Assembly: GCF_000255115.2 (NCBI RefSeq)
Contig: NC_018068.1
Span: forward strand, 4,063,977 to 4,127,976
DNA length: 64,000 nt
Source of the DNA: Desulfosporosinus acidiphilus SJ4
GTDB taxonomy: Bacteria; Bacillota; Desulfitobacteriia; Desulfitobacteriales; Desulfitobacteriaceae
Direction of reading: 5' to 3'
This document shows positions 1 to 17,606 of the stretch, one piece after another. The translations under genes and the position numbers were made by a program. The stretch's first letter is position 1. The number at the start of each line of letters is the position of its first letter. Below the pieces are notes generated by a model. It saw only the letters and a program-made list of their open reading frames with translations. It had not been told where the DNA came from and made no database searches.

Positions 1-680
1 AGAGGACGGCTAATATGTCGTGCCAGCATAATTGCCAAACCCGCCCCCACAATCAAGGCCATTAAAACAAATATAATCAGGAACCTCAAAACAGAACTAT
101 CTGTAGTCCGCGCATCTACAACGGCTTGAGCCCCTCCTTGATCCTGAAAATTCATTTGAGCATTCATATCTTTGATCACCTGGTCAAAACTTGCTTTGCT
201 CTTATCCATTATTATGGAACGGGCCTCATCATCCTTACCTTCCGCTATCAGTTTCCATACTTCATCAGCATCTGTCATATACATGCTAAAGGATTTCTGC
301 ATGGTTTGACTTCGTGCTTTTCCATCTCCACTTGTTACATATTTATTATACTGGGCAAAATCACTTTCCCATTTGGTTTTAAAGTTCATGAATTGAGCTT
401 TTTCGTCCTGTAACATTTTTGCATTGGCACGCATCGTAAATCCTATCAAAAGAGTACGCCGAGTGTCTTCTGTATCCTCAACCACTTGCGCCAAGGACGT
501 TGTTGCTTTTAACCAATGCCCGCCTAGATCTTCCGCTCCCGCATTGATCTTATAAACGCCGAAATAGCCCACACCCCCAACAAGCAACGTTAGTAGCAGT
601 ACAACCAAAAAGCCTAAGAGTAATTTAATTCTTATCCCGTAACTTATGACAGACTTTGAGGTATCTATCTTTTTATCCAT
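1..680 (-). CDS. methyl-accepting chemotaxis protein, N-terminal part (cut by window edge)
   Basis: Reading leftward from ATG at 678-680 (GGAGTG upstream) gives 226 codons open to the window edge. The product starts with a short basic tail, then a hydrophobic segment (about residues 18-42), an extracellular helical region of about 150 residues with the pattern of a 4HB_MCP ligand domain, and a second membrane segment. It ends in ARHISRPL, the usual entry into a HAMP domain. The kinase-control region lies outside the window. The protein would sense an external signal and steer CheA. An array of 11-bp direct repeats lies about 230 bp upstream, as for other envelope genes here. The class call is firm; the ligand is unknown. 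Confidence 0.85.
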   Translation of the reverse strand, partial: MDKKIDTSKSVISYGIRIKLLLGFLVVLLLTLLVGGVGYFGVYKINAGAEDLGGHWLKATTSLAQVVEDTEDTRRTLLIGFTMRANAKMLQDEKAQFMNFKTKWESDFAQYNKYVTSGDGKARSQTMQKSFSMYMTDADEVWKLIAEGKDDEARSIIMDKSKASFDQVIKDMNAQMNFQDQGGAQAVVDARTTDSSVLRFLIIFVLMALIVGAGLAIMLARHISRP

Positions 681-909
681 GTCTTAGCAACACTCCATTT
701 CCTTAATAAGTTCAATTCTCCGGTCTACACTACCATACTCCGCCCAGTGCCGAAATAACAGCTACTGCTATGTAATTCTTGCCATTTATGATTTATGGTT
801 TGCTTTTCGACAAGAACACCAAGATAACCTCTATTTTCTTATGTCATTTTAGATTTTAATGATGCAACCTTGTCTATGGTCAAAGTATATTGAATCAATA
901 CGACTATGC

Positions 910-937
910 TGTGAATGAGTTATGAATTTCTCATGAA
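910..937 (-). promoter_or_regulatory. three 11-bp-spaced TATGAA-type repeats upstream of the MCP gene
   Basis: Plus-strand hexamers TGTGAA (910), TATGAA (921) and CATGAA (932) are spaced exactly 11 bp apart. Read on the gene's strand they are TTCATG-like boxes followed by GTCGTATT and an AATATACT -10-like sequence. The same layout occurs at 4346, 7734, 11435, 12646 and 40193. An 11-bp direct-repeat operator is typical of OmpR/PhoB-family regulators; the regulator itself is not identified. Confidence 0.6.
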
Positions 938-1000
938 TTTACCTTTTTCTTTGAAGGTTTGAATTCGTTCAGGCTACTGTTCACCACAATGAAAGACAAA

Positions 1001-1043
1001 AAAATGACTGGGCTGACTCTCATTCGTTAGCCCAGTCATTTTT
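1001..1043 (-). terminator. intrinsic terminator after dsrJ-like copy 1
   Basis: Inverted repeat AAAATGACTGGGCT / AGCCCAGTCATTTT just past the stop of the cytochrome gene, with a T-run on the minus strand. The same hairpin, partly decayed, follows copy 2 at 14633-14662. Confidence 0.75.
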
Positions 1044-1044
1044 A

Positions 1045-1452
1045 TTATGTAGCGCCCTTCGGTAAAATATGGCAAATCCAACAGTTAGGATTCACGGCTG
1101 TATGATCATGGCATGAAACACAGAACTGATCAGATGTTTTTAAAGCCGGATCATAATGACAATTTAAGCACGTTTGAAGATTATTTTCGAATGACTTGCC
1201 TTGACTATTAATATATACCCTTTTGCCTTTGCGTACGGCTTCATCTCTCCATTGGTTCAGCAGAATCATATGATTAGCCTTCATCCACTCTGCAGGCTCA
1301 ACACACTGCTTAACCGCTAATTTCTGGATAGCTGGAGTATTCAGATTTATTACAGGTCCCTTGCCTGATTTCCTTATGTTATAGAGGAACGGTAAGCTGA
1401 CTATAGCAACAAAGACAACAAGTGACGCAATGATTTTTCCCCATTTGTGCAT
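1045..1452 (-). CDS. dsrJ: DsrJ-like triheme cytochrome c, copy 1
   Basis: A 135-residue protein with one N-terminal membrane anchor (about residues 7-24) and three heme c sites: CLNCH (95-99), CVSCH (111-115) and CWICH (124-128). Cys50, in the CVEP motif, matches the conserved cysteine that acts as an unusual distal heme ligand in DsrJ. DsrJ is the extracytoplasmic cytochrome of DsrMKJOP, which links the quinone pool to sulfite reduction. Here it stands alone, with no dsrM, K, O or P beside it. A strong GAGGAGG lies before the ATG. Copy 2 at 14670 differs at about a dozen residues. The family is clear; whether it works with a Dsr complex elsewhere is inference. Confidence 0.85.
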   Translation of the reverse strand: MHKWGKIIASLVVFVAIVSLPFLYNIRKSGKGPVINLNTPAIQKLAVKQCVEPAEWMKANHMILLNQWRDEAVRKGKRVYINSQGKSFENNLQTCLNCHYDPALKTSDQFCVSCHDHTAVNPNCWICHILPKGAT

Positions 1453-1634
1453 TATCCATTAGCCTCCTCGTATTTAGGTTCACACTTAGTCATTAGTCGA
1501 TGCCTCTCTTTCTAAACCCACAATAGAAATTAATGTCTCAGCGCTTATATTTCCTTACTTTACATATTATCTCTGACTATGAGGCCTATTATGTGGAATT
1601 AGCTTTCTAGATGCGATGGCCTACAAATAAGTTC

Positions 1635-1850
1635 TCAGCCTCTGTACGGATACGCACCTGCCTTCTGTGATCTTGATCTCCACAATAACGGACTATAACT
1701 TTTACAATTAATGACTTTGTTTTCATTACACTCTGTCGGTAGTGGTTTACACCATGGAATGTTTGGCATTCGTTTAAGTAAAGCTATTGGTAACCAAGTA
1801 TTAGTCGCTTATGGGTATGCCTGGAATATTGTTAAACAACGCTGTGGGCA
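1635..1850 (+). pseudogene. decayed multicopper oxidase remnant, copy 1
   Basis: The plus strand resembles the 3' half of the intact multicopper oxidase at 13108-13998. It matches the segment from about 13595 (GGATACACACC-like), then TTTACAATTAATG, then GCATTCGTTTAAGTAA, then TTAGTCGCTT, with the HLHGH coding part deleted and no open frame. The same remnant follows the second cytochrome copy at 15258-15500, so the cytochrome and the remnant were duplicated together. Confidence 0.65.
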
Positions 1851-1852
1851 AC

Positions 1853-1900
1853 TATAAATTAAGGGACACTGATAAAGAAATCAATGTCCCTTAATTTATA
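1853..1900. terminator. 20-bp inverted repeat, possible bidirectional terminator
   Basis: Arms TATAAATTAAGGGACACTGA and TCAATGTCCCTTAATTTATA pair with one mismatch around an 8-nt loop. It lies downstream of the methyltransferase on the minus strand. In the second duplicated unit the equivalent place (about 15495-15520) is where the ATPase element begins. Confidence 0.6.
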
Positions 1901-1982
1901 AATACAACCTAATTTTGATCTCTACCGGATAAACTAAATTTACTACCCATTCTTCCAGTAGATCCATCATTGTGTTGACGCT

Positions 1983-2585
1983 TTATGGTGTAGCTAGGAT
2001 CAGTTTAAGGATCTTTGGTTTCTGATCAATAACGTCGCCGATATGCAACCCAGCAGCTTTTACATTTTCTACAGTCCGACGATTAATGTGTGGCCCCATC
2101 ATTCTCACCATCAAAGGATCCATCAAATCCATTAGTTTCCCCAACAATTGATGATCACTTCGGACATGTTCTAAAAGAATAATCTTACCTCCAAGTTTAC
2201 AAACCCGTCTGATTTCTCGCAAACCTTTAATTGGATCCGGCACAGAGCAAAAGACACACGTAGCTATTACTGTGTCGAAACTATTGTCACGAAAGCTTAG
2301 CTGCTGCGCATCCATCTCCTTAAGCTCAACGTACGCCTTTGCCTCTCTAGCACGTGGTTTTGCCTTATCCAACATCCCCGGGCTTATGTCAATACCCGTG
2401 ACTTCACATTCTGAAGGATAGAATTCAAGATTCTTGCCGGTTCCCACTCCAACTTCTAGTACCTTTCCTTTTACACCACTTAACAACTCGCGACGCAAAT
2501 CCGACTTAATCATACTATCCATCCAGTCATAGAAAAGTGCTGTTCTATTATACCGTTTACGTGTCAATATCGTTTCCTTATCCAT
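1983..2585 (-). CDS. class I SAM-dependent methyltransferase (UbiE/Methyltransf_11 type)
   Basis: A 200-residue soluble protein with SAM motif I VLEVGVGTG (42-50), the acidic VTGID strand end near residue 65, the DAQQL region and a TCVFCSVPDP motif IV. The length and the closing LLEHVRS segment match UbiE/Coq5-like small methyltransferases. The substrate cannot be read from sequence; quinone, lipid or arsenite methylation are options. An AAGGGGGA lies 6-10 nt before the ATG. It is transcribed alone on the minus strand between two hairpins. Confidence 0.8.
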   Translation of the reverse strand: MDKETILTRKRYNRTALFYDWMDSMIKSDLRRELLSGVKGKVLEVGVGTGKNLEFYPSECEVTGIDISPGMLDKAKPRAREAKAYVELKEMDAQQLSFRDNSFDTVIATCVFCSVPDPIKGLREIRRVCKLGGKIILLEHVRSDHQLLGKLMDLMDPLMVRMMGPHINRRTVENVKAAGLHIGDVIDQKPKILKLILATP

Positions 2586-2643
2586 AATAATCCCCCTTTC
2601 ATCTATTTACTTCCATTCTTGTCGAGTACAGCCTAGTATAATG

Positions 2644-2676
2644 AAAGGCTCAAACCAATTATGGTTTTGAGCCTTT
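2644..2676 (-). terminator. hairpin between the coiled-coil gene and the methyltransferase gene
   Basis: Arms AAAGGCTCAAA-CC and GGTTTTGAGCCTTT pair with one bulge. No clear T-run follows, so it is a weak terminator. The 2677-2889 stretch has no supported gene. Confidence 0.4.
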
Positions 2677-2889
2677 GAACGGAAATACTTTTTATGGGCG
2701 AACGCTAAATAATGTTTGGATCAGTAACCTTCCGACAAGCATTAAATACCTGAACTTTTGCAGTCTGTTTACCACACATTACCTTTTACTACTCTAGCCT
2801 CCCATCATTTCATTACCACCATCATAGACGTTACTTCCCTGAGCAGAATTAGCTCAGCATCCAGGCCTTAATACTCTTGAAATTTTCTA

Positions 2890-3552
2890 TTAACTAAGTT
2901 CAGACTCAAGATTCTTTATTTTTTCTCGCTGCGCTAGCGCCTTGCGTTCCAATATCTTTGCTTCCACTTTAATTTCAAGAGCTTCGAGCTGTTTCAGATC
3001 GGATGCCAGTTCCTTAATTCGTATCTCTAAATGACTTGATTGTTCCATTAGTTCTTGGCGATGCATCAGGTGATCTCTTGCTTTTTGTTCATCAAGAGCA
3101 ATAGATTCTTCAGCGAATCTCTCCTCAAGCTTCATCTGATTCGCTAGTTGGTCATAGCTTTGTTTAATTTCTGTAATTAATGTGTTAATTTGTTGTTTAG
3201 CTGTTGATAGTTCCGCCTTTTTTGATTCTAGATTTTTAATTTCTGATAAATCCACTGTCGTTGAGTGTTCTATTTTTGGTGTTTCTTTGATGGATTCTCG
3301 TTGCCTAGTTGTTTCCCTCAAATGTGCCAAATCATCTAAAGTAAATAGCCCTCGCTCCATTTGATCCAATACAGTATAATACTGGTCTCTGCCAATCGTT
3401 CCCTGAGCATAAAGTATATTTACTTCACGTCGAATTAGCTCTCTGTCACTATATCCTTCAGTATTATATGAACGTTGGTGTGGTATGCCAAAAGTACCTC
3501 CACCACATCCGCCACCAAACCCGTACATCCAATTACGACCACCGCCACACAT
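2890..3552 (-). CDS. Gly-rich/coiled-coil PspA-partner protein with SHOCT-like motif
   Basis: 220 residues. The N-terminus is rich in Gly, Cys, Trp and Tyr. Residues about 45-80 (LYAQGTIGRDQYYTVLDQM) look like a SHOCT-type helical motif. The rest (about 95-220) is strongly charged and heptad-like, predicting a long coiled coil. No signal peptide is seen. It starts 18 bp after pspA and has its own RBS, so the two form an operon and probably act together on the inner membrane face. I do not recognise a named family; the partnership is inferred from position and the shared coiled-coil build. Confidence 0.7.
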   Translation of the reverse strand: MCGGGRNWMYGFGGGCGGGTFGIPHQRSYNTEGYSDRELIRREVNILYAQGTIGRDQYYTVLDQMERGLFTLDDLAHLRETTRQRESIKETPKIEHSTTVDLSEIKNLESKKAELSTAKQQINTLITEIKQSYDQLANQMKLEERFAEESIALDEQKARDHLMHRQELMEQSSHLEIRIKELASDLKQLEALEIKVEAKILERKALAQREKIKNLESELS

Positions 3553-3570
3553 AATATTCCTCCCTTTTAC

Positions 3571-4278
3571 TTAATTGTTTGAAGCCAATTTCTTTCTCAA
3601 TAGAGTTAATTCTTCTTCAACTTTGGAATCTTTGCTTAACTTTCTGAATCTACGTTCCATATCATCGGTTTTCGAGTCAAAGGCCTCGGAAATTACCCCT
3701 TGCTCAGTTAACTCATCGATAGCCTTCACTCTAGCCTGCATATCATATATTTTACTTTCTGCTCGCTCGATGGTTTTTCCTACTTCATCCGCTTCAGAAC
3801 CGACAGATGTCATCATTTCTTTGACCTTAAGCTGCACTTGAGACGCGTTATAAACTGCTTTTAGTTCTTCCTTTTTACTACGAAAGTTTGATATTTTATG
3901 TTTCAATTCTTCTTGGTTATTAATAGTGGCCGTAAGCTGATGATCCATCTCAGAAAGCTGGTTCTCTAATTCCTGAATCCGCTCTTCTGCTTCAGCCTTG
4001 CGGTTAAGAGCTTCTCTGGCTAAATCCTCTTGTCCCAATGCTAGTGCTTTTTCCGCATGTTTCTGATAATTTGTAGCCATTTGAATTTGTTCATCTCTTT
4101 GCATCTCAACTCTTTTCTTAGAAGTCGTTAACTGAACGGTATTTTGAACTATTCTTTGAAGAGCATCCTCCATTTTTCGCAAACTGAAATCAAGCATCTC
4201 CCCAGGGTCTTCAGCCCGATCAAGGCTCTTATCTACTTTTGCCTCGAATAGCTGTTTTAAGCGAACAAATATTCCCAT
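3571..4278 (-). CDS. pspA: PspA/IM30 (Vipp1-like) membrane-stress protein
   Basis: 235 residues beginning MGIFVRLKQLFEAKVDK, the amphipathic N-terminal helix of PspA/IM30, followed by LDRAEDPGEML and an almost entirely helical, charged body. Length and sequence match the family. These ESCRT-III-like proteins polymerise on stressed cytoplasmic membranes and limit proton leak. It is the first gene of a two-gene minus-strand operon. A four-box array of 11-bp TATGAA repeats lies 68-106 bp upstream and suggests inducible control. Confidence 0.93.
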   Translation of the reverse strand: MGIFVRLKQLFEAKVDKSLDRAEDPGEMLDFSLRKMEDALQRIVQNTVQLTTSKKRVEMQRDEQIQMATNYQKHAEKALALGQEDLAREALNRKAEAEERIQELENQLSEMDHQLTATINNQEELKHKISNFRSKKEELKAVYNASQVQLKVKEMMTSVGSEADEVGKTIERAESKIYDMQARVKAIDELTEQGVISEAFDSKTDDMERRFRKLSKDSKVEEELTLLRKKLASNN

Positions 4279-13107: not shown

Positions 13108-13998
13108 ATGGTGATCTCGCCAGATCTACCAAGCATACCCTTTATCATGAAAAACGGAGTAAAATACTTTGAACTAATCGCCCAACCCGTACAACGGGAG
13201 ATTCTTCCAGGGCTCTACATCAACGCTTGGGGATATAATGGTAGTACTCCTGGACCAACCATCCATGTTCATACAGGAGACTATGTCAATATTCGTGTCT
13301 ACAACAGGCTTCCCGAATCCACTAGCGTGCATTGGCATGGTTTAGATGTTCCAAACGTCATGGATGGCGCCCCTGGTATGACAAGTAGCCCTGAGATTGG
13401 ACCCGGAAACTATTTCGATTATCAATTCCAGGTTACTAACCCTCCCGGTACTCACATGTATCACGCTCATATGGATGCGATGCGTCAAGAAATGATGGGT
13501 CTTCAAGGCGGGCTGATTATTTTAGAACCAAACGAACTAGGCAGGATTCATCGTGATTACTTCCTAATGTTTCAAGAGTTCCATGTCGACAAACAGCCCA
13601 TGCGTGGATACACACCCGGCGTCTATGATCTCGATCCCCACAATATGGACTACAATTTTTTCACAATTAATGGGCGATGTTTTCCAAACACCAAGCCACT
13701 AGAAGTCTGTACAGGTGAGAATGTTCGCATTCGTTTGAGTAATGCCATGGAAACCGCCCACCCCATCCATCTCCACGGCCATCAATTCTATGTCACCGCT
13801 TCTGATGGAAACACAATTTCTCCCGGTCAACGACTATTGAAAAACAATATACTAGTCGCTTCAGGGGATACTTGGGATATTGAGTTCTTAGCCAACAACC
13901 CCGGTCAATGGCCTTTACACTGCCACATACCGCACCATATGACCAACAACATGTCCAAATCGGGAGGAGGGATGATGACAACCGTTCTTTATAGGTAA
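13108..13998 (+). CDS. short two-domain-type multicopper oxidase without signal peptide
   Basis: 296 residues with all four copper motifs: HWHG (75-78), HMYHAH (116-121), HPIHLHGH (218-225) and HCHIPHHM (271-278). Cys272 is the type 1 copper cysteine, and the type 2/3 histidines are complete. Such enzymes oxidise Cu(I), Mn(II) or phenols and reduce O2. It is much shorter than the usual three-domain forms (450 or more residues). A stop codon lies three codons upstream, so there is no leader peptide. The RBS (AAGGATGTG) is weak. Whether the lack of a leader is natural or a truncation is open. Decayed relatives lie at 1635 and 15258. Confidence 0.85.
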   Translation: MVISPDLPSIPFIMKNGVKYFELIAQPVQREILPGLYINAWGYNGSTPGPTIHVHTGDYVNIRVYNRLPESTSVHWHGLDVPNVMDGAPGMTSSPEIGPGNYFDYQFQVTNPPGTHMYHAHMDAMRQEMMGLQGGLIILEPNELGRIHRDYFLMFQEFHVDKQPMRGYTPGVYDLDPHNMDYNFFTINGRCFPNTKPLEVCTGENVRIRLSNAMETAHPIHLHGHQFYVTASDGNTISPGQRLLKNNILVASGDTWDIEFLANNPGQWPLHCHIPHHMTNNMSKSGGGMMTTVLYR

Positions 13999-15077: not shown

Positions 15078-15257
15078 TTCCTTTGCCCTCCTTTTTCGGT
15101 GTTTAGGATCACACTTTAAGCGATGCCTCTCTTTCGACACCCAAATTGGAAATTTGTGGTCACGTTTCTAAGATACTACCCTACGTATTATCTCTAACTA
15201 TGAGTCTTATTATGTTGAATAAGTTCTCTAGGTACGATGGCTGAAAAAAAAGTTCTC

Positions 15258-15500
15258 ACCCCTGTGCAGATACACACCCGGCGTCAATGGTCTTGATCTC
15301 TACAATATGGGCTAAAACTCTTACAATTAATCGTGCTGTTTTCTTTACACTACGCCAGTAGTGGTTTACTCTGGTTAAATGTTCACGTTCGTATGAGTAA
15401 GGCCATGGAAGCCAAATATCAGTCGTTTCTGGGGGAAAAACCTAGGATATTGAGTTAAAGAATAACGTAATCGCAACACAACACTGTGGGCAACAATAAA
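15258..15500 (+). pseudogene. decayed multicopper oxidase remnant, copy 2
   Basis: Plus-strand similarity to 13600-13900: GATACACACCCGGCGTC, GATCTCTACAATATGG, TTCGTATGAGTAAGGCCATGGAA and CCTAGGATATTGAGTT, with the part for the third copper motif deleted. No open frame. It parallels the remnant at 1635-1850. Confidence 0.7.
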
Positions 15501-15520
15501 TTAAAGGACTCTGACATTGA

Positions 15521-15549
15521 TCTAAGGGGTTCAGTTCTGGAGTGGAAAT
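15521..15549 (+). repeat. left terminal inverted repeat of the ATPase element
   Basis: Begins TCTAAGGGGTTCAGTT and ends GGAGTGGAAA. It is the reverse complement of 17297-17325 except at about three positions. Confidence 0.8.
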
Positions 15550-15557
15550 TTAGTTTT

Positions 15558-15595
15558 AGCACTAGTTTTAGCAGAAAATCAGCATTAAATTAGCA
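15558..15595 (+). repeat. left subterminal iterons (AGCA x4)
   Basis: AGCA, preceded by T/A-rich sequence, at 15558, 15570, 15581 and 15592 (steps 12, 11, 11). They lie on one face of the DNA helix and match the mirrored set at the right end. Confidence 0.7.
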
Positions 15596-15868
15596 CAAAC
15601 TAAAAGGCTAAATCCCTTGCAATTAGCGAGTTGCAGTTTAAAATAGCAGATTTTTAACATCGATTCAGCAGAGAATTAGCAGTGGAATTATTTATTTCTA
15701 GAAAGTATTTTTGCTAAAATTTTGCGATTCACAGTGCTAAAAATCTACTCTTTCTATGCTGAAATATTGCTAAAATCTACCTATTCATGTTTTCGCTTTC
15801 AAAGGACTCGGAGATGCTGGAAGTTTGTAAAAATAGGACATTATTTGTCTAAAGAGAAAAAACTATAT

Positions 15869-15914
15869 CAATAGTCAAACTTTTTTCTGTATGTAGAAAA
15901 AAGTTTGACTATTG
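15869..15914 (+). promoter_or_regulatory. 20-bp perfect palindrome upstream of the ATPase gene
   Basis: CAATAGTCAAACTTTTTTCT / AGAAAAAAGTTTGACTATTG pair perfectly around GTATGT, 36 bp before the start codon. It could be an operator for autoregulation or an RNA hairpin that limits read-through into the gene after insertion. Confidence 0.65.
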
Positions 15915-15949
15915 TAAGTATTTGGTATATACTCAGGTTATGAAACGAG

Positions 15950-17167
15950 GTGTTTAACGTGATTCAACGCCAAGAGTATCTAAATCAGCTTATCTCCGGA
16001 CGCGAGAAGCAAATAATCAAGGTGGTAACCGGCGTTCGGCGCTGCGGAAAATCCACTCTATTTACCTTGTATATTGACTATCTAAAATCTACAGGCGTTT
16101 CCGAAGAGCAGATTGTTTCGATTAATCTTGAAGACGTCGAACATGAAGAACTATTGAATTACAAAGCGTTATACGACTACGTGAAGGAGCGTCTGTGCAA
16201 GGATAAAAATACTTATGTTTTTATTGATGAGGTGCAAAACTGTAAATCCTTTGAGAAGGCTGTAAACAGCCTTTTCATTAAACCAAATGTGGATGTCTAT
16301 ATTACCGGATCAAACGCTTACATGCTTTCAGGTGAGCTAGCGACGCTGCTTTCTGGACGCTACGTTACTATTGATATGCTTCCCTTGTCTTTTAAAGAGT
16401 ATTGTGAATCCACTAGTAGTGCTGGAAAAACTATACGGGAAAACTTTAACGATTATCTACGATTCGGCTCTTTCCCTTATGTTGCCATAATAGAACGCAG
16501 TGATAAGGTCGTTATACCGTATTTAGACGGTATCTACAGCACGATTTTGTTAAAGGATGTCGCTAAACGAGAAGGTATAACCGATGTTTCTCTTTTGGAA
16601 AACATAATAAAATTTGTCGCTGCAAGCGTCGGAAGCCCTATCTCTACTAAAAAAATCAGTGATACTATTAACTCAAGTGGACGGAAGATTTCGGTCAACA
16701 CTGTAGAACATTACCTGCGTGCCCTGACGGACAGCTATATTTTCTATAAAGTTGAGCGTTACGACATCAAGGGCAAGCAGCATCTGAAAACACTGGGCAA
16801 ATACTATCTTGTAGACTCCGGTATCCGTAACTTGTTACTTTCGACTTCATCATCCGACCTTGGTCACATGATTGAAAACGTGGTATACCTAGAGCTACTC
16901 AGGCGCGGGTCCAAGGTCAATATCGGCAAACTTTACGAAAAAGAGGTTGACTTTGTTGCCAGCGACATGAATGGAAGAACCTACTACCAGGTAGCTGCCA
17001 CGGTACTCGATGAAAGCACTTTGAATCGCGAACTGGAACCTTTGGAGAAAATTGCGGACAATTATCCAAAGATTCTCTTGACGCTTGACGATATTGGTCC
17101 CGGAAGAAATTTTGCAGGTATCCGCCATCTCAATCTACTTGACTGGCTCCAGAAAGGGGAGCCATAA
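15950..17167 (+). CDS. AAA_14 ATPase with C-terminal DUF4143 (nuclease-like) domain
   Basis: 405 residues from GTG at 15950; GTG at 15959 is an alternative with better RBS spacing. Walker A is GVRRCGKST (28-36), Walker B FIDEVQN (91-97), and a sensor-like YITGSNA follows near 117. The second half is DUF4143. Its end (EVDFVASD...YYQVAATV near residues 325-345) has the spacing of a PD-(D/E)XK nuclease core, with Q-V-A in place of E-V-K, as is common in this family. Function of the family is unknown. It is the only gene between inverted ends, so it may be the mobility protein or a passenger. Own terminator at 17191. Confidence 0.85.
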   Translation: MFNVIQRQEYLNQLISGREKQIIKVVTGVRRCGKSTLFTLYIDYLKSTGVSEEQIVSINLEDVEHEELLNYKALYDYVKERLCKDKNTYVFIDEVQNCKSFEKAVNSLFIKPNVDVYITGSNAYMLSGELATLLSGRYVTIDMLPLSFKEYCESTSSAGKTIRENFNDYLRFGSFPYVAIIERSDKVVIPYLDGIYSTILLKDVAKREGITDVSLLENIIKFVAASVGSPISTKKISDTINSSGRKISVNTVEHYLRALTDSYIFYKVERYDIKGKQHLKTLGKYYLVDSGIRNLLLSTSSSDLGHMIENVVYLELLRRGSKVNIGKLYEKEVDFVASDMNGRTYYQVAATVLDESTLNRELEPLEKIADNYPKILLTLDDIGPGRNFAGIRHLNLLDWLQKGEP

Positions 17168-17190
17168 AAAACAAACAGGTTAAAAGATAA

Positions 17191-17226
17191 AAAAATAGCC
17201 AGGAAACATGAAATCTGGCTATTTTT
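17191..17226 (+). terminator. intrinsic terminator of the ATPase gene
   Basis: AAAAATAGCCAG / CTGGCTATTTTT stem followed by T residues, 23 bp after the stop codon. Confidence 0.8.
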
Positions 17227-17250
17227 GTGTTAAAATCGTGCGAATTACTA

Positions 17251-17288
17251 TGCTAGAAATCTGCTAAATTTCTGCGATTCTTAATGCG
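17251..17288 (-). repeat. right subterminal iterons (mirrored)
   Basis: TGCT at 17251 and 17262 and TGCG at 17273 and 17285 (steps 11, 11, 12). Read from the right terminus they lie at 37, 49, 60 and 71 bp, the same distances as on the left. Confidence 0.7.
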
Positions 17289-17296
17289 ATTTTTGA

Positions 17297-17325
17297 TTTT
17301 CCACTCCAAAACTGAGCCCCTTAGA
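17297..17325 (-). repeat. right terminal inverted repeat of the ATPase element
   Basis: Starts TTTTCCACTCC and ends GAGCCCCTTAGA; inverse of 15521-15549. Confidence 0.8.
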
Positions 17326-17331
17326 CATTGA

Positions 17332-17411
17332 TCTAAGGGGTTCAGTTCTGGAGTGGAAAACTCAAAATAGCATAGGTTTAGCGCAGAATGAGCAGTTATG
17401 CTGGGCTAGCA
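17332..17411 (+). mobile_element. left end of a second, truncated copy of the same element
   Basis: Right after CATTGA, the left terminal repeat starts again (TCTAAGGGGTTCAG to GGAGTGGAAAA, 17332-17360), followed by AGCA, AGCG and AGCA at 37, 48 and 59 bp from its start. Similarity then fades and no gene or right end follows before 17607. This implies a tandem insertion followed by deletion. Confidence 0.65.
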
Positions 17412-17606
17412 CGGTGAATAGTAAACGCTTAACGCCTGCCCAACGTCTTTGAGTTACAGAGAAACATTTTAATATTATTTAAAGATATTAATCTATATTT
17501 GCTGAATGAAAAACGTTATGTTTTCAAGGGGTAATTCCCATTTCAGGGTAATTGTTAAACAAAATGGTTATAATTACCTAAATGCAAAACCGTGGAAGGT
17601 GGATAA

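Follow-up and report, generated by a model that had tools for sequence, protein, structure and literature searches.

A probable non-autonomous relative of Tn7491 in Desulfosporosinus acidiphilus, with an AAA_14/DUF4143 ATPase gene as cargo and an apparent terminator-loop target site

The window, that is, the whole 64,000-nucleotide stretch of Desulfosporosinus acidiphilus SJ4 DNA that was analyzed, contains an element of ~1.8 kb (15523-17323), which starts with TAAGGGG, finishes with CCCCTTA, and is flanked on both sides by a 10-bp direct repeat. The features of the locus are as follows.

15497..15512, + strand: left arm of the target terminator hairpin (ATAAATTAAAGGACTC...), from homology to an intact hairpin at about 1853-1900
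15513..15522, no strand: target duplication GACATTGATC, left copy, 10 bp, from direct reading and repeat search
15523..15792, + strand: left end module (left-end model, E 1.4e-41), with the left inverted repeat at 15523-15548 and AGCA boxes at 15558, 15570, 15581, and 15592
15905..15933, + strand: probable ATPase promoter TTGACT-17-TATACT, read from the sequence and conserved upstream of aligned homologues
15950..17167, + strand: AAA_14/DUF4143 ATPase (passenger), an ORF of 405 codons with a Pfam match
17188..17323, - strand: right end module (right-end model, E 4.6e-31), with the right inverted repeat at 17298-17323, CGCA/CGCA/AGCA/AGCA/CGCA boxes (outer bases 17288, 17276, 17265, 17254, and 17242), and a hairpin (17191-17226) that is probably the terminator of the ATPase transcript
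17324..17333, no strand: target duplication GACATTGATC, right copy, between the right end and a third end
17334..17395, + strand: tip of a second, decayed element sharing the GACATTGATC duplication, from the end search and end models
17396..17494, + strand: transposase C-terminus remnant (NSKRLTPAQRL...) of the second element, from homology; a longer remnant lies in genome G029

The original prediction had placed the element at 15521-17325 with a 6-bp flanking repeat; the element is real, but 2 bp of the duplication had been wrongly included on each side, and the repeat is in fact the 10-bp GACATTGATC (9 bp in most of the family). The inverted ends described there were recovered as 28 nt with 2 mismatches (0 expected, from 100 shuffles), and the [AC]GCA boxes do start 37, 49, 60, and 71 bases inward of the originally proposed termini (1-based 38/50/61/72), at identical distances at both ends. 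The terminal inverted repeat fits the pattern TAAG..GTTCAGTTTTGGAGT..AAAA of Tn7491-like elements, and the 10-bp duplication compares with 9 bp at three Tn7491 sites. The 28-bp end occurs three times in the window (15521-15548 [+], 17298-17325 [-], and 17332-17359 [+]) and never in shuffled sequence; the third copy, which the original prediction had missed, lies at 17334-17359 (+), directly 3' of the right duplication copy. Across the genome of the strain (5.0 Mb, 3 contigs), the end sequence is confined to these three copies at the window locus. As predicted, the ATPase is the single gene, and no transposase is recognizable in the element or in its genome, so the window copy may now be immobile; because its own ~650-aa transposase is absent, the element is classed as a non-autonomous derivative.

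The same end, with boxes at identical positions, is found in related Desulfosporosinus and across Bacillota, which supports the prediction that this is a DNA transposon whose subterminal sites mirror each other. When up to 3 mismatches were allowed, 26 of 74 genomes of the order matched the end, some of the 3-mismatch matches arising by chance (the reversed control also gives a few); the end is thus not the single occurrence that the original prediction had named as evidence against itself. Scanning 84,980 GTDB species genomes for a degenerate version of the end returned 96 stretches, and the 80 listed are all from Bacillota, judging by their titles; a paired end with duplication was present in 22 of the 96 and a transposase match in 19. 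Two IMG/VR viral contigs (L275, L276) also carry the end pattern, and in one of them, two ends face each other across about 3.3 kb. Family elements measure 0.6 to 4.4 kb, and their cargo is varied (AbiE, TetR/PPDK-like, MarR/nitroreductase) or missing. Complete elements of the same genus have perfect or near-perfect 10-bp duplications and differ in content, as follows.

L075: 0.83 kb, no obvious gene, duplication CCTTAAAGAC
L078: 1.8 kb, MarR-like and nitroreductase-like genes, duplication ACTTATAGAA
L084: 4.4 kb, degenerate transposase and AbiEi/AbiEii, duplication TGTTGATCAC
L071: 3.5 kb, TetR-like and PPDK-like genes, duplication ACTTTAGTTY

Nucleotide alignment (blastn) splits the window element into three blocks: a left end module (15523-~15792) similar to the left modules of L084 and L072, a cargo block (15754-17202) with 88% identity to an ATPase locus without recognizable ends in genome G013, and a right end module (17188-17323) similar to the right modules of L071, L072, L078, and L084. 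Judged from these alignments, the end modules are exchangeable, and the cargo separates cleanly from them. In one genome (G170), two near-identical autonomous copies (L284, L285) share the left end and differ in their left flanks, and they likely moved recently; a long right part is common to both, and the full element may be larger.

Related ends enclose intact transposases in L076, L103, L129, L142, and L286, and TAAG-type ends enclose a degenerate one in L084. The intact autonomous element of L076 (genome G010; 391-3687), which has related ends (TAACGGGTTCCGTTAAGAGGTTCAAAA), contains a 111-aa frame, a protein of ~650 aa, and a 113-aa frame. No Pfam family was found for the ~650-aa protein, the transposase has no match among PDB sequences, and peptide patterns recovered none in IMG/VR. 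The zinc/HTH region of its relatives weakly matches the IS1 and IS1/IS1595 models: five of eight members match, the best E value for an IS1 model is 1.4e-06, under the curated cut-off, and the L084 piece scores 22.9 bits against the IS1 family model, for which the cut-off is 100. The protein may tentatively be called IS1-like, not IS1. The motifs N.D, D.D, and LERPL contain candidate catalytic residues that are invariant in the transposases and would correspond to a DDE triad; an AlphaFold2 model computed from five input sequences had a pLDDT of 42, too low to be usable. In the autonomous elements, the transposase gene also has a small gene (about 100 codons) ahead of it (L076 751-1083, L084 6421-6756, L220 5698-5994). 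The L076 version gives a weak RelB/DUF6290-like match, and the product may act as a regulator or belong to the transposition machinery.

Homologues of this transposase link the family to trimethoprim resistance. They occur in 114 plasmid records, mostly from Enterococcus, with 97 covering at least 80% of the protein, and the copies examined (Staphylococcus aureus and Enterococcus faecium plasmids, a staphylococcal phage) adjoin dfrG in an element bounded by TAAGTAGTTCAGTTTTGGAGTACAAAA with 9-bp duplications. This element is the dfrG transposon Tn7491, which was originally seen within Tn6198 of Listeria; published work on it (PMC10763498) gives the same end, the 9-bp duplication, and signs of within-genome movement. 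An "insertion element protein" constantly linked to dfrG (PMC8638950) and dfrG with IS1 flanks (PMC11217367) have also been described. Tn7491, found in staphylococci, enterococci, and Listeria, is the nearest named member of the family, which so far appears to be known mainly through this one resistance transposon.

The more likely start codon of the ATPase gene is the GTG at 15959. The -35 box of the promoter is overlapped by a perfect 20-bp inverted repeat with a 6-nt spacer (15869-15914), and similar repeats lie upstream of ATPase homologues (L080, L081, L083); this repeat may be an operator or attenuator. The protein matches PDC-S01, which in PADLOC is a candidate defense family only, over its full length (E 3e-160, residues 3-402 of 405), and the gene is a candidate for anti-phage defense. 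Walker A and Walker B are conserved. PD-(D/E)xK nucleases are expected to have a lysine in their motif; in the nuclease-like C-terminal domain of this subfamily, that position is Ala or Ser, so nuclease activity is doubtful. A dN/dS value of about 0.08 against a 94% homologue indicates purifying selection.

End models built without the window and without any ATPase element detected left-end remnants adjoining a 91% ATPase homologue (E 1.2e-10) and one 57% homologue (E 1.2e-4), and right-end remnants 50 to 60 bp behind two further 57% homologues (E 1.1e-14 and 4.7e-8), all in the same orientation. Several homologues therefore have ends beside them, contrary to the possibility, raised in the original prediction, that none would. 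A wider claim, that AAA_14/DUF4143 proteins generally are parts of transposons, finds no support in these data, as the end models gave no match beside more distant homologues of the same genus (about 40% identity). Reversed sequence gave no match either. A single, recent acquisition of the ATPase gene, without any durable link to the element, is conceivable if unlikely: at the DNA level, the cargo shares 88% identity with the G013 locus, where almost no trace of ends remains, and the cargo of the family is highly varied; this reading has difficulty with the end remnants that adjoin the 91% and the three 57% homologues in the same orientation, though two independent captures could also produce them. 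As decayed ends lie beside a second, 57%-identical lineage, the association looks old, and the simplest reading appears to be that the ATPase lineage has long been associated with the element.

Target sites were rebuilt by joining the flanks of complete elements. The joined flanks form terminator-like hairpins in which the loop is the duplicated sequence, as in L195 (AAACCATCCCTGA[TGAATTGAC]CAGGGATGGTTTATTT). A fixed stem score was applied to 26 resolved sites, with scores of at least 14 counted; the duplicated 9-10 bp form the apical loop of a Rho-independent-terminator-like hairpin at 19 of the 26, compared with 0-2 of 26 at displaced positions and 2.9% of random positions in the same loci, and the other seven sites have low stem scores. 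The mean score is 19.4 when centered on the duplication and at most 7.9 at displacements of more than 12 bp; the center of the hairpin falls on the duplication to within about 1 bp, and most of the signal is lost at 3 bp. Five of the 26 sites (L219-L222, L286) joined the set after the pattern had been seen, and the hairpin is clear in three of them. Among 99 flanks outside the discovery set, which include a few redundant and stacked ends, G+C is enriched at 10 to 18 bp and T at 19 to 24 bp (57% versus 32% far away), and T5 runs occur in 38% of the flanks versus 2-9% of control stretches. A terminator preference could also arise from survival, gene-breaking insertions having been lost, and it is true that terminators are intergenic and that the sites examined are all natural, selected insertions; we regard this as improbable, because gene avoidance alone would not center the cut on the loop within about 1 bp.

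At the window locus, the left flank (AAATTAAAGGACTCTGA) and the left arm of an intact hairpin elsewhere in the window (about 1853-1900) are homologous up to the duplication and no further; by this homology, the left flank is half of a terminator. The right arm is absent, its place being occupied by the decayed second element. Relatives offered multiple copies and 9-10-bp duplications but not the exact empty site of the window locus, and the paralogue of the left flank within the window was used instead: 15121-15514 is a diverged (71%) duplicate of 1498-1872, where the hairpin is intact. Part of this flank (15269-15414) has 77% identity to 13607-13755, within a multicopper-oxidase-like gene (13108-13998), and looks like what is left of a second, decayed copy. 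Targeting of terminator loops by a DNA transposon appears to be undescribed so far in the literature searched, which took in few subscription papers and yielded no description of it.

The second element is reduced to a tip fused at about 17395 to the final codons of a transposase gene; at the orthologous place, genome G029 retains more of this gene, and genome G014 is without it. Stacks of two or three elements at one duplicated site are frequent (the window, L071, L072, L073, L076), and the autonomous element of L076 occupies one site together with two TAAG-type elements, between which it is inserted. Arrays with one common 9-10-bp site span L076 1-3700, L071 2511-6060, L072 1612-1650, and L073 5586-5650; in L076, the autonomous element is of TAAC type and the ends on either side are of TAAG type. 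Our guess is that base pairing between the CCCCTTA/TAAGGGG tips and a terminator arm rich in G or C could restore a hairpin at every junction (L112), which would possibly account for the stacking.

Taken from the sequence, the ends, boxes, duplications, exchangeable end modules, varying cargo, linkage of ends to transposase, and terminator-loop sites point to the reading that we favor with a probability of roughly 85%: the window element would be a non-autonomous passenger transposon of the mobile insertion cassette type, belonging to the family typified by Tn7491, using terminator-hairpin-loop sites, and carrying the ATPase gene as cargo. In our view it is a real transposon, and its kind, the passenger cassette, is already known. 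The transposase of an autonomous relative would bind the ends and catalyze transposition, the window copy having been mobilized in trans by a matching transposase; the terminator hairpin would be actively recognized, with its loop duplicated on insertion, and the ATPase gene would ride along with its own promoter and terminator. Of the two roles originally offered for the ATPase, that of a passenger, which would be moved in trans, is supported; a role in mobility, either as the enzyme itself or as an indispensable helper comparable to IstB, TnsC, or MuB, is scarcely credible and was rejected, since, even though it is the sole gene between the window ends and the 57%-identical lineage likewise has decayed ends beside it, the same ends enclose other genes or none elsewhere, the autonomous relatives and Tn7491 have the ~650-aa transposase and no such ATPase, Pfam gives AAA_14 plus DUF4143 and not a transposition ATPase, and more distant homologues are without such ends.

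For the family as a whole, we think it likely that an unclassified, Bacillota-wide group with an IS1-related transposase of ~650 aa, including the clinically important dfrG transposon, recognizes Rho-independent terminator hairpins, duplicates the loop, and seeds many non-autonomous cassettes and stacked arrays, with some of the cargo (the PDC-S01 ATPase, AbiE) serving in phage defense. Such a family would give a concrete route by which some AAA_14/DUF4143 genes spread as transposon cargo, and it links an environmental cassette to a resistance transposon circulating in staphylococci, enterococci, and Listeria. The predicted preference for terminator loops would account for insertion close to genes that leaves them intact, and it indicates where further insertions of the family are to be expected.

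Among known systems, an IS21 or Tn7-like element with an AAA+ helper (IstB/TnsC/MuB type) was considered and rejected; the ATPase is AAA_14 plus DUF4143, and the element has no transposase. IS1 typically generates 9-bp target duplications. The zinc/HTH region of the relatives' transposase weakly resembles IS1 and IS1/IS1595 models; unlike IS1, the family has a transposase of about 650 aa in one frame that stays under the curated family score, as well as other ends, cargo, and terminator-loop sites. Mobile insertion cassettes such as MIC231 of Bacillus cereus (PMC3913671) are similar in having a passenger gene between IS-like inverted repeats, no transposase, and a target duplication, and movement in trans is presumed for both; the window element likewise has its passenger between repeats that match transposase-bearing elements, whereas MIC231 uses the ends and transposase of IS231 (IS4-type), and the window element has Tn7491-like ends. 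Group IIC introns also target Rho-independent terminator stem-loops (PMC7923331), but they are retroelements that insert beside the stem-loop, whereas the Tn7491-like family consists of DNA transposons that duplicate the loop. The closest likeness is to Tn7491 itself: its end, TAAGTAGTTCAGTTTTGGAGTACAAAA, has 23 of 27 bases in common with the window end (4 of 27 differ), and its ~650-aa transposase, common to related elements, is 43-45% identical to that of L076. Tn7491 has its own transposase and dfrG, whereas the window element has the ATPase and no transposase, AGCA/CGCA boxes of its own subtype, and a 10-bp rather than a 9-bp duplication.
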